This document shows, piece by piece, positions 2,141 to 13,386 of a stretch of 35,718 bases of DNA. Numbering within the stretch: position 1 is the first letter of the stretch; every line of letters begins with the position of its first letter. Source of the DNA: Ectocarpus siliculosus (lineage: Eukaryota > Sar > Phaeophyceae > Ectocarpales > Ectocarpaceae); contig FN649736.1 in NCBI GenBank assembly GCA_000310025.1, positions 4,819,487 through 4,855,204 on the forward strand, read 5' to 3'. Below the pieces are notes generated by a model. It saw only the letters and a list, made by a program, of their open reading frames with translations, made no database searches and had not been told where the DNA came from. A program made the translations under genes and the position numbers.

Positions 2141-3053
2141 TCCCATGAGGTGAAAAATTATAAAAGTTGCGGGTGAAAGCAAAATATAGCTGAAAAAGTT
2201 CTCGTGAATACCAAACTTCGACGTTAGCACCGTTGACGAGGAATGGACCCTTCTCGCGGTGAAGATAAAATTCAGCACGTACCGCAGGACGAAGGTGGGG
2301 TACGAAAAAATATGTAAAGGAGAAAAATGCCCTGGTGTTTACCCCCTCCTGTGTAACCCTGGATGGTTGTCGTTGTACGAAAAATACGCTGAAAAGTGTA
2401 GTACTCTACATATACTGAAAAGTGTAGTACACGTCTCATCACGAAAAATGGAGGGACTGTCGCCATAATAAAAAGGACGAAAACATACACGCACAACGGC
2501 ATTTAGAGGTGTTTTGTGTTTTCAACCGCACTTAGACTGACGTATTTCCATTGGTGAGCCGGTTAGCGCGGTCGATGCTAATAATAAAACAAAAAACACA
2601 CACACACACACAACTTTTTTTTCGATCCCGACGACGTGGCACATTCACATGTTCTCCTGGCTCCAACTTCGATGGGCTTTCTTAGCTTGAAAGAAACAAA
2701 GCCGAAGTGACTAAGGGTACTGCCACGCTGATCGCGTTTCATTTTGGTGTGGTAGTGCCCTCAGCACAGCAGTTCGCATTGTGCTGGTTGAAAGAGGCAC
2801 CGAACACATTCTAAATCGCCCCGACGGCTGGTCACAGCTGTTCTCCACAAAGGCTGCACATGTGCTTTTTCAAGACCTACTTTTCAACACAAACCTGCTG
2901 CGTCCAACAACCGCGGTCCTGACAGGGTTCAGCATGCAGAAGGGCGCAACTGTACCACAGCTTCCTTCAGCTCCCGGTAGAGTTGATTTTGCAATGTTTC
3001 AATTAACACCACACGTCAACTCACTCACATTTTGGCCCTTTGTATTCGTCAGT
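2141..3053. other. Region upstream of the Roc exon, no LRR exons found
   Basis: LRR cassettes would be expected here for a ROCO gene, but none is visible on the plus strand. The stretch contains a duplicated gctgaaaagtgtagtac motif (2389-2433), a copy of dispersed repeat A at 2521-2580, and a short CA microsatellite near 2597-2612. The plus-strand frame at 2781-3062 resembles nothing known. Confidence 0.45.
2521..2580. repeat. Dispersed repeat family A, copy 1
   Basis: The core is ttcaaccgcac(t/c)-agactgac followed by cattggt-agccggttagcg and an A/CA-rich tail. Related copies lie at 8812-8856 and 9030-9100, and a partial copy sharing the gttagcgcggt-gatgct end lies at 27266-27315. The family is unidentified. 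Confidence 0.55.
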
Positions 3054-6000
3054 GTTTCCTAGATTGGTGGCGGAAGAACTTGCGGCTAGAAACGTGACCG
3101 TCACCACCAAAGACAACCCTTGGAAGGAGCCACCAGCGGAGGTGATGGAGAGGGGCATGGCCCATGCGGCTGTTTTTCTCAGGGACTTGGATGACTACGG
3201 CAGGGCATGGTGCAACCGCCTGAAGGTTGTGTTGGTTGGATTGGGCGAGGCAGGGAAGACCAGTATTGCCACACGACTCGAAGACCGACTCGCATCTAGC
3301 TGTCCGAAACCCGAGGAGCGCACCGTAGGCGTGGAGATACGGGACATGAAGCTAGGACCTGGCCCAACCAACGAAGGAAGCGGGCCGAATGTCGAGCTAG
3401 ACGTCAGCCTCTGGGATTTTGCTGGGCAGAGAGCGTACTACGACACGCACCAGGTGGGAGGGACGATGCATCCTACATAGAATCCAGCAGCGATCCTACC
3501 ATCGCTACGAAACACGTGAACGAGTGTATGGAGGAAGTATTTCGTTTGGTAACATGTTTGACTCTCGCTGTTGGCGACCTCTCTTTTCTTCGAGGCACAC
3601 GCTATGACATGCGCTACGTACGGACACCTAATTACGACCGTTCCCCGGATGTCCCGCGGTTTCCCAGATGTTCCTTACACCAGGCGCTCTCTTCGTTCTG
3701 GTTGTGGATATGTTCACGTATGCGGAGGGGCATTCACGGGAGGATGCGCTCGAACAGTGGCTTGATATCCTGCAGGCCAGAGTCCCGGGTTCCGTTGTGC
3801 TGCTCGTGGGAACGCACACCGACTTATTTGAAGACAATGCAGCCGAGTGCACCGAGCGAACGGATAGCTTCAAGAAAGGTCGGTCGTGCGGGCGAACTGT
3901 TGCAATGTAGTTCCAGTGATGGCAAGCGTCTAGTTCGTATCTCGTGACTGTACCTCAACAATTTGTTGGGTGCGATCGCGGATGCTGCTGCTCATACCTC
4001 GGTCGGGTCGGTTGGGTGAAGAATTGCAGTGAACGGCAACCTTGTTCAATACATGATTGCGTCGCGCAGCGAAGGAAGAGGCGCGGAGTGATGGGGGCTA
4101 CAACAGACCCTGCGTAGGACACCTGCAGGGCACATTGAGCCGAAATATATAGTTGGAGGTTCAATTTTTCGGGTGTTGAGAGTTGGGGCTCCACGATGTC
4201 CGCGGCTAAGTCGAGCGTATGACACCCTAGGATTTTACGCCTTTCCAACAGCTGGTGGCCCAGTAGTTTTCGTTGGTCGATTCTGTTACACACGTGCAAG
4301 CACCACCGCACAGAAATCTTGCCGCTGAACTGTGTCCGAGCACTCGGTTTCCATGCTCAATGCAGATTTTGTTCTACGTCGTCCAACAGCACCCATCTGT
4401 CGCCGTGGCCAACAGATGTGGAAGACGTCATGACGCGCATGCGCTGCCAATGTGACTCAGCCAAGGACCGTACGGAAACAGAACTGGGAAAGGGACACCC
4501 GGACTTGGAAGGTAACCCCCGCTACCAACCCCTCCGCGTGGTGCTGGAGGAAGACTTGCTTGCCCTGGATCTTACTTCCTCGGACGGACAAGATATTGAC
4601 CTGCTTCAGCACCGTTTAGAGCACCTTGCCTACAACGGGTACGACGGCTACTCATTCCCATCCGTGGGGAGCGTCGTACCGGAACCTTATTTGCCAGCCA
4701 TCGCAACGCTCGAAGCTGTTCGTAGGGGCGCGGATTTACGTGGTTCGGACAGGACACGTGAAGCGGTGGCGCAAAGGCTTCGGGAGGGGGACCCCAAGAA
4801 ACGTCGAAGCTTCGTCAGATTCTCGGAGGTCCTGTTTATTTTTGCGGAACTCCAAGAGGAATCCCTTTTCTCGATTTTGAAAATGAAAACATTTCGCCTA
4901 TTAGATGATGAACCACGGCGTATATTCCTCGCCGCTATCAAGTCACACGAGGCTCACGGCGCGATTCTTCTGACTGGGGTTGACGGGGGTGGCGGTTCGC
5001 AAGAGAAACATAATACGGGCATTGGTGCTTCGGCATCAGCAGCGGACCTCATCATCCACGTGAACCCGTCCCGGTTTGCTGATCTGGTCCGCCGCGTGGT
5101 GGACGTTCGGTTGGTAGACCCGCAGCAGCAGGCAAAGGTGGTAGAAGCGATGGAGGCATGCCCGTCAGTAAGGCCGATGCTATTGACACTCACAGACCAG
5201 CACAAGAGGTTTGTCAAGGCGGGAGAGGTGAGCAGAGACTACCTCAAGTTTCTGTGGCTTCGAGATATGGAGTTGGGCCAGGCAAGCCTAGAGGCACCGC
5301 CTCTGGAGATGAGCGAAGCAGACGTCGACGTGATGGTGGGTAGCTTGCTTGACGTCCGCTTCATGTATCGAGTGCGAGATGGTGACCACGCCTTCGTGCC
5401 GGACCGTTACGTTGTAGCAAGCTGTCTCCCGAACAAAGCTGGTCCAGACGTGGATCCAAGGGAGATTTTAGAACTGAAGACGGGAAGTGCGATATATTCG
5501 CAGAAGCTGAAGCTTGTTGGGGCACATTCTGTGCCCCCGGGGCTGGTGCCTCGGTTGCTGGCGTGGTGTGGGCGCGGGGAGGGGCGTATCAAGGCGTGCT
5601 GGAAACGAGGCGTGTGTTTTGCGTTCAAGAACCACTTGGTATTGCTGTACGAGGTTCGGGCAACTGATGGAACATCGTGGATTGAGTGCCACGCGAGGGG
5701 AAATGTGTTCGACGAGAGTGCGAGGACGGCTCTAAAAGACATCGGCGACCAGGTTGACGAGCTGATCAACGACCGCAAGTACGGATTCCCCGGCCTGGGC
5801 CTCATCCGTAGTGGAGAGTCGGAGGAGACACTAGTCTCTTCGGATGGTGACCACAAGGCTTTGGTGGAGCGTATCGTGAACGTCCTGAGGGATCAGATGA
5901 ACGTCAAGTTCATGATGGATAGAAGCATGAGGCAGGACGTGGCCTTAATACGGTGAGCACTCATGTAGTATGTACGGTTCGAATGCATATTGTTCGTACC

Positions 6001-9753: not shown

Positions 9754-12700
9754 CTATCTCGACCCCCCCTCCTCCAGCAACACCGCCCCGTCACCCCCGA
9801 TAGATCCCAAGAACCTCTTCGACCACGCCCCTCCCCTATGGCTCCACCCCGCTCTCGCCGATCTAGCCTCCCCCCCTCCCTCCGCTGTAAACTCTGATTC
9901 TGGTGGCTCTGTTGCCACTGCTTCAGCAGCAGCAGGTACGTCGTCATCACCAGCCACGCGGCGCAACACCAAGACGTCGCAATATTTGGCTCCCCCTGCG
10001 AGGGCTGCCCTTACGGCGGCCTCCGCCGTCCCTCGCCAATCCAGAGCACCGAGGTCCGGGACCGCTTCAAGCCTGCCCAAGGCCTATGTAGAGCATCAGC
10101 ATCGTTTGCGGGAGGCGAGAGAAAGGAAGAGCGAGGTTGACGGGTGGAACGAACGTAGAGCGACCCTGGAAACATACAATCGAGGACCGCGTCTTTCTGT
10201 CCTTGCTTCTTCTGTGACACGCACTACTGAAGCGAAAGCATCTCTGGCATGCGGCCCGCCCGGCGAAAGACATCCAATCCTCCTGCACTTTTTCCCATCT
10301 CCAACGGAAGCCGTGACCACAACAACTAGCCGGATAGCCGTCCCACATTCATCGTCAGCGAATAGGTTCACCGAGAACGTATCAGTTGCAATACGTCCAC
10401 TCCTGCAGCAATTCCTGCGAACACAAACACATACCACCGATACTCCTGGTGCAACCTGCTTATCGTACTCTCCTGGTGCCAACAAGTGTCGCAGTGTCAG
10501 TTGGATCTTGTTATTTACCGTAATCTCTTTCACCTTGTCCGAAGCCTTCCCTACCGCGGAAGCGGTCCACTCCGCGTATGCCCCCGACGGCTCCGACCGG
10601 AAGACGCTGGGGAGCAGCGTGTCCTCGTCGAATCCGGCGACAAGGCAAGCGACGCCGTAGGGACGCGCGCCGCCGGTGCGGGTGTAGCGGTGCTGCAGCT
10701 CTCCTGGCATGGCAGCCGCGGTAGCAGCAGCAGCAGCAGCAGTAGTCGCAGCAGCAACAGCAGCAGTAGAGCAAGCAGCAGCAGTAGAAGAAGCAGTAGC
10801 AGTAGCAGCAGCGACAGCAGTAGCAGCAGAAGGAGGAGGAGTTAATCGACGACCAACGCAGGCGAACCCTAATACGTGGGAGTTTATAAATAATAAATAA
10901 TGTTCTGTGAGTGCTTGCTGCGGCGAAGGAGCTACGTGGATGTGACGACCGCGCCCCTGTTGTCCTCCTGACGAAAAACAGGATGGACAGGATCATCTTT
11001 GGGGTTGTTGTTAGCGAGGAAACCGGTCAAAAAACGCTCAGCCTGTTGGTGTGCTCTAGCAACCGAATCAAACCCTTAGCAATGCGCTTGGGTTCTTGTT
11101 GCCAAGAGGAGTGCTTATGGTCACGCATATGGGTCGACCTCGTATGTACACCAGCAATCAGAATATTTTTTGATTGCGGGTGTACATACGAGGTCGATTC
11201 GTGAGCGTGACCATATGCGCTCGTCTTGGCAAAAAAAAAACGAAGCACAGTGCGGCACAACAACATACACCAGAGACACAAAATATGTAGTCGTGTCGGA
11301 GCAGCAGCGCCTACATCCGTGGAAGACACACCCATGCGCGAGCAGCAGCACCGAGACTTTCGAGACACGTTAGATACAACCAGAAGGGAAACTACGTAAA
11401 AGCAACCTCCCCTAATGTAACCACGGAAATATCGACCGCGTCAAGTGGTTGCTCAGTACGGTACTGGCTAGAGAGATCGGAACGGTTTTTAATGTGAAGA
11501 CAGCAACAACAACGACTACTGCTGCTGTTGCCGTGCAGAAATACTAAAAGAGTAAGTGGCTGGTCAAGATAGATATGTCATAGCTGCTCACCGACATATC
11601 TGGCGATGTACCCAACGCTCGGAGCGGCTCCCATGCTGTACCGGTAGCTCTGACACTCCAGCCTTATCTTGGACGCCAAGACGCGACCGTCCGCCGAAAT
11701 GCCCGCGAACGCGAGGTAGACTCCTTCATCGATCTTCGCAAGGCGGCGGGTAAAAAAGAACAGACGGTGCGAGTAAGTCAGCAACAACATCAACAAGTTT
11801 CCTCCATACTAATTCAGCGGAAGTCGACGCCCCGGAGACTAACTCCAAGTCCTGGACAGCAGTGTTCCGTCAAAAGATTTGGGGGCGGGGGGGAGGGGGG
11901 GGGATGTCGCCGACTTGACCGAGTGGAGAGGGTCATCACTAAAGAAGAGCTGCTGTTGTGAAGGGGGTGGGGGACAGTCGTCCAAAATAGAACGCTGCGA
12001 GCAGTCCCAATGAGGGAGGTAATTGCGGGGGTGCTGGGATGTACCAATAACAACGGGCCAGGTGCAGTTCAAAGCACCATATCACACGAGAGCGCACTCC
12101 GACCGCGTACATCACCAACCCCCCCTTCAAAATCCTGCCCCTGGTCATGTACGCATACAAGCATACGCATGGTTTTCACATACCTCACACAGCTTGCGAT
12201 CCTGGTTGTTAGCGCTGTCCACGATACCCACCCCGACCCCTGGATCACGCACACCTCCTTCGTGATGTTTGCGTCTATTCCGTCGCCTGCTGTAGACATG
12301 GTCATCGCCCGCTCTTGCCGTGTCTCCGGCGGCGCCGGCGCCGGCGTCGGTGATGGCTGAGGTCGCAACCGTTGTCTCGGATGCTCGTGACGGTGTTGCA
12401 TCCGGGTCTGTGATATCGCCGTCGGCTGCGGGGCGCTCGAGGCACATTGCGATGGCGTCGCGGCCGTTGCACGCGGCAACCCCAAGGCTTCCTTGCTTCA
12501 CCGCTTCTTCCGCGTAGGACACCTGAGAGACCAAGATGGAAGACAAATACGGAGGAACAAAGAGTGCAGTCAGCGCGACGAGAACGGATGCCAAGTCAAA
12601 ACGCCTCATTACAACGATGGAACATGTTTGTAACGGTTGCTGCATCAAACTTTGTTGTCGTGTAGTTGCTCCATGTTCAGGTGAAGACCACAGCGGGAAC

Positions 12701-13386
12701 ACAACGACAGCGCTGAGGGTTTGAGAGGTGAACACAGGCCATGCGCGAACACACCGACTGCTGTGATGCCAACCCCATGTGGACCTACATACATACTGAG
12801 GGTCAAATGCCGCGCGCTTGAATAAGCCGTGCTCGCTTGTGTGCTACACACGCGTAGTGAATTCCTGCCGTACACGATGTTCTGCACGAAGTACACGGAT
12901 GTCAAACACATGGATGCACCATCCCAAACCAAGTAAATCCAAAACGCCTCGCGCTTGAAGAAGCCACTCCACACCCCACGCATGCCGCTGCCGCTGCCGT
13001 ACGCCTCGACATTTGCACAAAAATTTGAATTTTGCACACACTTTGTTACCCAACGTCGGATTCACCGCAATAGGCGTGTGGGAATAAAGCGCTTGCCACC
13101 AGACGTCGGCAACTGCACATACTTATCTTTGGCACACGGTTATCTAAACAATAGCACTCCCGCCGTCACGGGCGGCGGTGCAACAGCAGCAGTCTACAGC
13201 AGTACCGTGGTCGATTGTCGATGCTACAGGCTACAGGCAATGAAGTCCTACACGTAATTGCGCCGCATATCATACCTGCATCAGTTTGCCATCGGGGGAG
13301 AACACTGTGATGGCACGGTCGTAGACGGCAGCCATACAAGGCCGAGCCGCCAGAATCACCGCCAGGACCGCTATGGGAGCTCGCAT
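9754..13386 (-). CDS. Divergent 20S proteasome alpha4-type subunit with N-terminal hydrophobic extension and insert
   Basis: Five minus-strand exons fit: 13386-13276, 12522-12184, 11733-11592, 10703-10519 and 10083-9754. Their phases agree (0, 0, 1, 0) and give about 368 residues against roughly 250 for alpha4/PSMA7. Signatures in order are YDRAITVFSPDGKLMQ, YAEEAVKQGSLGV, RKLCEIDEGVYLAFAG, LECQSYRYS, IARYVGELQHRYTRTGG, RPYGVACLVAGFD, EPSGAYAEW, and a terminal AAVRAALAGGAK block. The YDR gate motif and the lysine (RKL) equivalent to archaeal alpha Lys66, which receives regulator tails, are kept. The usual VEYA is VSYA. An Ala/Asp/Arg-rich insert of about 70 residues follows CLERP. Seventeen residues (MRAPIAVLAVILAARPC) precede an internal Met at 13335 that would give a normal-length N-terminus; TAG lies in frame 18 nt upstream of the first ATG. 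Role: outer ring of the 20S core; this looks like a paralogue. Confidence 0.85.
10704..11591 (-). other. Intron 3 of the proteasome gene, with CAG-type triplet tract
   Basis: The end next to the acceptor (plus-strand 10721-10840) is an imperfect run of gcagcagcag/gtagcagcag triplets. On the minus strand this reads as a pyrimidine-rich TGCTGC tract just before the ATGCCAG acceptor, so the triplet run may serve as the polypyrimidine tract. The plus-strand Ser/Ala-rich frames across it are shadows. The intron also contains the long hairpin at 11099-11232. Confidence 0.6.
11099..11232. repeat. Long intronic hairpin: 62-nt inverted arms, 10-nt loop
   Basis: The arm at 11099-11160 (ttgccaag...cagcaatca) is the reverse complement of 11171-11232 (tgattgcggg...cttggcaa), with about nine mismatches in 62. 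The loop at 11161-11170 is gaatattttt. It lies wholly inside intron 3 of the proteasome-like gene. It could be a fold-back (MITE-like) element or an intronic small-RNA precursor. No flanking target duplication is evident. Confidence 0.75.

Follow-up and report, generated by a model that had tools for sequence, protein, structure and literature searches.

A leader-bearing alpha4 paralogue and a probable second 20S proteasome core in the brown alga Ectocarpus siliculosus

We analysed a stretch of 35,718 nucleotides from Ectocarpus siliculosus (contig FN649736.1 of assembly GCA_000310025.1, positions 4,819,487 to 4,855,204; hereafter the window), in which a five-exon gene on the reverse strand encodes a divergent paralogue of the proteasome subunit alpha4. 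Judged from its sequence and those of its relatives, this protein, alpha4', is likely to fill the alpha4 place in a second 20S proteasome of the brown alga, one specific to a single compartment, probably the periplastid compartment (PPC). The genome encodes divergent counterparts of nearly all core subunits, and most of them carry leaders. This duplication of nearly the whole core was overlooked in the initial annotation of the gene.

The alpha4' gene and a second set of core subunits

The identification of the gene as an alpha4 paralogue, already made in the initial annotation, is confirmed by matches to the Pfam families Proteasome_A_N (6e-11) and Proteasome (1e-26), both over the curated cut-offs, by a PDB search in which the closest solved relative is PSMA7/alpha4 (E = 7.5e-43), and by a separate canonical alpha4, for which the genome was searched and which lies on contig C2 (locus L001; 92% identical to human over 26 N-terminal residues). 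In trees, alpha4' clusters with the alpha4 class and not with other alpha subunits (support 99/97), and it is 36% identical to its own canonical alpha4. The gene model was built by hand; its introns are all GT-AG and its frame is open without a stop across 368 codons. Exons 3 and 4 came back unchanged from a spliced aligner, as did the outer edges of exon 2; for exon 5 it placed the start elsewhere. The features of the gene, in window coordinates, are as follows.

9754..13386, reverse strand: coding span of alpha4', the second-set alpha4; 5 exons, 368 residues (sequence, Pfam and PDB match)
13276..13386, reverse strand: exon 1, the leader followed by YDRAITVFSPDGKLMQ (hand-built model)
13330..13386, reverse strand: secretory signal-peptide-like leader, residues 1-19, MRAPIAVLAVILAARPCMA (sequence; 0/40 and 0/1000 shuffles)
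13333..13335, reverse strand: second ATG in the frame, which could serve as a cytosolic start, with T at -3 and G at +4
13315..13323, reverse strand: YDR gate motif, residues 22-24 (Tyr8-Asp9-Arg10 in T. acidophilum numbering; alignment)
12184..12522, reverse strand: exon 2, VSYAEEAVKQGS..., with the insert and the pocket lysine (hand-built model; the spliced aligner places an intron inside)
12202..12432, reverse strand: 77-residue low-complexity insert, residues 68-144, with the basic cluster SRRRNRRKHH, just ahead of the pocket lysine (alignment, coding score)
12193..12195, reverse strand: pocket lysine K147, equivalent to T. acidophilum K66 (alignment)
11592..11733, reverse strand: exon 3 (hand-built model and spliced aligner)
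10519..10703, reverse strand: exon 4 (hand-built model and spliced aligner)
9754..10083, reverse strand: exon 5, start placed by hand (the aligner picked other starts), with an extended C-terminal tail of about 67 residues ending in GGSR

The search for core subunits covered the whole genome assembly (189 Mb) and gave 26 further loci in 32 pieces, which were modelled with the spliced aligner apart from one, an HslV gene. The canonical set holds 13 of the 14 classes (alpha1, 2, 3, 4, 6 and 7 and beta1-7, the single beta7 being counted here), and the divergent second set likewise holds 13 (alpha1'-alpha7' and beta1'-beta6', with alpha6' covered by a model for two exons only). The genome search gave the divergent alpha5' (L009) but no canonical alpha5, which may fall in a gap. 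Several aligner models, stitched from small exons, are untrusted (alpha1', alpha6', alpha7' and beta7, together with the N-terminal ends of beta1', beta5', beta6 and others). A search for proteasome relatives in viral contigs gave 25 pattern matches, none of which was confirmed.

Twelve of the 13 second-set proteins join their own class (bootstrap 93-100), while alpha6' sits on a very long branch and is unplaced. Across the six alpha classes for which it was calculated, identity to the canonical partner ranges from 29 to 41%; two of these classes have untrusted models. Among the 12 classes with both copies, 11 are placeable, and in seven of these the second copy falls outside the human and own canonical sequences, with strong support for alpha2, beta2 and beta5 only; alpha7, beta3 and beta4 are without resolution and beta6 shows the reverse, in trees that hold no red algal sequences. 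These placements speak against a recent duplication, an effect that long branches could mimic. The second-set proteins also differ in composition from 12 canonical ones, with lysine at 3.3% against 6.4%, arginine at 8.1% against 4.6%, GC at third codon positions of 0.725 against 0.796, and GC at positions 1 and 2 of 0.574 against 0.488 (untrusted models included); the low lysine possibly reflects avoidance of ubiquitylation, or possibly base composition.

The YDR gate motif and the regulator-pocket lysine are kept in alpha4', as had been noted at the outset. Tyr8, Asp9, Pro17 and Tyr26, the cluster that acts in gate opening, are all retained together with pocket Lys66. With the canonical alpha4 (PSMA7/PRE6 and the copy on C2) the paralogue thus shares YDR, Pro17, Tyr26, the pocket lysine and its tree class; it differs in having a leader, the 77-residue insert, a longer C-terminal tail, and VSYA where VEYA is expected, a replacement that was correctly read before and that alters Glu25. 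The pocket lysine is also retained in alpha2', alpha3' and alpha5'. As a side observation, the canonical alpha2 (L005, C111:47953) reads FSRTGK, with Arg where the open-gate Pro17 is expected.

An insert of about 70 residues had been described; it comes to 77 residues, at a site where human alpha4 has about a dozen. By its score it looks coding, exceeding >99.9% of 3618 overlapping open windows taken from introns of the same genome, yet it reaches only the 9th percentile of exon windows. The spliced aligner prefers an intron here and in both runs bridged the insert in frame (12369-12202, donor GTTGCG; 12399-12202, GC donor), since its scoring penalises a long insertion more heavily than an intron. 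With a score of 0.8, the GTTGCG donor falls below all GT donors among the 76 training introns, the weakest of which scores 1.7; six GC donors score lower still. The training introns had themselves been picked by an aligner that rewards strong donors. Given these weak donors and the coding-like composition, an intron within exon 2 is judged unlikely, and the insert is kept in the model without being called proven. The insert presumably lies beside the pocket on the outer face of the ring and may tune docking there, or may be tolerated low-complexity drift. Intron 3 of the gene holds an inverted repeat that resembles a small foldback element (window 11093-11238; 71-nt arms, 83% complementary, 4 nt between them).

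Leader sequences across the second set

The best hydrophobic 10-mer of the alpha4' leader (Kyte-Doolittle score 3.22) was matched in 0/1000 dinucleotide shuffles, which bears out the secretory-like extension first seen upstream of the inner ATG; its length is probably 19 residues (to ..CMA) and not the 17 given before. The predicted cut after residue 19 leaves AVYDRA..., approximately the canonical alpha4 N-terminus.

Eight of the 13 second-set genes (alpha2', 3', 4', 6' and 7' and beta1', 2' and 3') have a leader that shares an exon with the core, so that no splice need be assumed. In the alpha subunits these begin or read MHYVANAMFLIAF.. (alpha2'), MARRRKLPHAAIVSVLSAAACLLSAALGA.. (alpha3'), MLLLLLEIVCVLCAASTVGA.. 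(alpha6') and MRVWLLLQLRLLLLCYNQHVAEG.. (alpha7'), and in the beta subunits MHPFLWQPQRGMLSAFAAAALALLVAAAGLVDA (beta1'), MSWCLLITLLLGAPFLS.. (beta2') and (..)MLVATVALRGGVLA (beta3'). Canonical alpha1, 2, 3 and 6, in which the start lies within the core exon, begin 4-6 residues ahead of the core and have no leader. A combined shuffle test gives p = 3e-10 for the 13 second-set genes and p = 0.68 for 10 of the 13 canonical genes (beta1, beta5 and beta7 were left out because their core motif was not found in one frame). With the window gene and alpha5' removed it still gives 7e-8 for 11 genes, a version reported because the Met behind the alpha5' value does not look like that of a leader. The leader score behind these tests is a crude one of our own, devised once the first leaders were already known.

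The test on 40 shuffles takes the best of the contiguous and spliced candidates for each gene and omits alpha6' and canonical beta1, beta5 and beta7. It gave 2/40 for beta2', 9/40 for alpha2' and 8/40 for alpha7', the last two because their contiguous leaders scored lower than other, spliced candidates. For genes with a spliced leader it is supportive in alpha1' (0/40) and beta4' (1/40) and weakly so in alpha5' (3/40). The proposal that the leader targets alpha4' is therefore strongly supported, more by the leaders on most of its sister subunits than by this gene alone; the compartment is what we infer below.

The single beta7 locus (L028, C6:2617500-2625500, reverse strand) has a hydrophobic in-frame stretch with Met residues upstream of its core. 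Through a choice of starts, one beta7 gene might supply both cores; alternatively, the stretch might be intron read-through.

Destination and rival readings

In the mechanism that we propose, the leader would take the alpha4' chain into the endoplasmic reticulum (ER), where signal peptidase would remove it; SELMA would then carry the chain across the periplastid membrane into the PPC, where it would occupy position 4 of the alpha ring and help to build a cap-less 20S core. Substrates would probably be delivered by an extra Cdc48 with an HbYX tail (..DDLYG), docking in the alpha pockets that retain their lysine. The gene content of the genome fits such a host: there are 87 LHC/FCP-family matches, as in a photosynthetic alga, and EsV-1-7 repeats (the best 150 of 880 candidates scored), large families of which are linked with brown algae.

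No second set of 19S ATPases was found in a genome-wide profile search, in which five loci passed the cut-off for the Rpt OB fold and a sixth matched weakly. This is no excess over the six of one canonical cap, although a missing match does not prove absence. Of the three loci that the Cdc48_N profile matched, one passes the cut-off and two fall short of it, and spliced models confirm all three as Cdc48. One is VCP-like, its tail not being reached by the model, and the others, ending in DDVDDLYG and DEDEDLFG, are extra genes (L034/L036/L039; L035/L037), so that the C-terminal HbYX motif is kept in one (LYG) and lost in the other (LFG). The LYG-tailed protein has, via an assumed splice, a long candidate bipartite leader, the only convincing leader candidate of the three. 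According to PMC5070193, heterokonts usually have two symbiont Cdc48 variants, and in most such species one keeps HbYX and one has lost it.

Plastid-bearing heterokonts are described as having host-encoded 20S subunits in the PPC (PMC5070193, PMC5756292), with the 20S core only, imported by signal peptide (PMC5070193, citing Moog 2011, Stork 2012 and Lau 2016), and diatoms as having such 20S proteasomes without a cap (PMC5756292). We prefer the PPC to the ER lumen as the inferred destination because of these homologues and because the authors of PMC3017844 suggest that crossing the periplastid membrane needs no transit peptide. By the rule in PMC12136025 that a non-aromatic +1 residue indicates the PPC rather than the stroma, the likely leader cuts of the second set, all with non-aromatic residues (Leu for alpha3' in one scoring), fit the PPC.

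Several results weigh against this assignment. The set is incomplete in the genome search, with no beta7', and alpha6' gave no consistent model past exon 2 with two profiles at three intron costs and has lost its pocket lysine. UMP1 has one locus only in the genome. Five of the 13 leaders (alpha1', alpha5', beta4', beta5' and beta6') depend on an assumed splice to an upstream exon, and for beta5' (6/40) and beta6' (11/40) the shuffles are chance-like. A simple leader threshold was passed by 6/13 second-set and 1/10 canonical genes (p = 0.077, not significant), the one canonical gene being beta3, whose core probably starts just after a splice. The LFG-tailed Cdc48 has no leader candidate and the VCP-like one has weak, spurious ones. 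Depletion of glycosylation sequons, expected for ER transit, is not seen in the second set (2 against 3.7 expected, P = 0.26, 10/13 proteins), and the canonical set is the more depleted (3 against 8.3 expected, P = 0.029, 9/13 proteins). Most contiguous leaders have little or no obvious transit-peptide-like stretch, so that the ER lumen or secretion is possible, and PMC12136025 itself advises caution over PPC assignments.

The last of these points leads to the alternative in which the second 20S acts in the ER lumen, or else in a vacuole or outside the cell, since a protein with a signal peptide but no transit peptide goes no further than the secretory system. In six subunits (alpha3', alpha4', alpha6', alpha7', beta1' and beta3') the leader runs almost straight into the mature core, whereas the LYG-tailed Cdc48 has its long bipartite candidate. 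We regard this as unlikely, given that no xDEL ends alpha4' (GGSR) or the other second-set C-termini shown, several of which are untrusted, that sequon avoidance is not seen, and that both the reported heterokont subunits and the suggested dispensability of a transit peptide favour the PPC.

Less probable still is that translation really begins at the inner ATG at 13335 and that alpha4' is a cytosolic or nuclear variant of an alternative 26S, as PSMA8 is in testis, with RRRNRRKHH as a possible nuclear signal. The product MAAVYDR... does begin much as other alpha subunits do, it retains the pocket lysine, and the inner ATG has the better +4 (G, against C at the first ATG), but the first ATG has A at -3 where the inner one has T, most sister subunits also have leaders, and a second Rpt set was not found. 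Four short upstream ATGs precede both starts. That alpha4' is a decaying duplicate without function is the least credible reading of all: the low-complexity insert and tail and the long branches could be so explained, but the introns are GT-AG throughout, a single frame is open over 368 codons, catalytic residues are intact in beta1', beta2' and beta5', and 13 classes have been retained together. A second core in the PPC remains the reading that we adopt.

Maturation of beta1' and relation to known systems

Thr1, Asp17 and Lys33 are intact in beta1', beta2' and beta5'. Gly-1 is kept in beta2' and beta5', and beta1' has Ala at this position: its signal-peptide-like leader (L019, C11:3666931, reverse strand), ..AAAGLVDA, runs right up to the catalytic Thr1. 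VDA is acceptable as a signal peptidase site under the (-3,-1) rule, though an earlier cut is also possible. We tentatively suggest, as a proposal that may well prove wrong, that the second core is matured by signal peptidase: the leaders would end at native alpha N-termini and, because the beta1' leader ends at Thr1 with Ala at -1, signal peptidase and not autolysis would unmask the active site. The leader thus seems to substitute for the propeptide. Propeptides guard against cytosolic N-acetylation, which the ER lacks, and so the propeptide would no longer be required. If this is true, ready-to-fold subunits matured by signal peptidase would assemble behind a membrane, and the beta1' leader suggests a route to an N-terminal-threonine protease without a propeptide. 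No published report of signal peptidase exposing a proteasomal threonine was found among the matches listed.

It had been thought that an alpha subunit outside the cytosol or nucleus would be new. As such it is not, since the second set matches the heterokont PPC 20S cores already published (PMC5070193, PMC5756292). In the accounts given there, these are alike in their nuclear-encoded core subunits with signal peptides, in the lack of any second 19S cap found, and in two extra Cdc48 proteins of which one has HbYX; the present candidate system differs in belonging to a brown alga, in covering 13/14 classes, in several leaders without a transit stretch and in the beta1' leader that abuts Thr1. 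The cryptophyte proteasome is likewise a second proteasome in a former red-algal cytosol, but in PMC5070193 it is nucleomorph-encoded in both its parts, whereas here the genes are in the host nucleus, carry leaders and come with no second cap that was found. PSMA8/alpha4s of the spermatoproteasome (PMC6726247, PMC6662770) is also an alpha4 paralogue that alters the core, but as described it is a single-subunit swap within the ordinary proteasome, whereas here nearly the whole core is duplicated.

We know of no secretory leader on PSMA8. No published title on a second 20S set in brown algae was found among the matches listed, many subscription papers lying outside their coverage. What appears new to us is the near-complete brown-algal set, the leaders ending at mature N-termini, and the beta1' leader abutting Thr1 with the change of Gly-1 to Ala. 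Two distinct 20S cores would then coexist in one brown-algal genome, and the near-complete parts list makes testable how a proteasome assembles after its subunits have crossed one or two membranes unfolded, how import by a machinery akin to that of ER-associated degradation is kept separate from proteolysis, and whether a eukaryotic core without a cap can be fed by Cdc48 alone.

Elsewhere in the window, reading frames at 3007-5956 on the forward strand contain a Roc-GTPase-like P-loop, GLGEAGKTS, and by eye are of ROCO type, no family search having been made.

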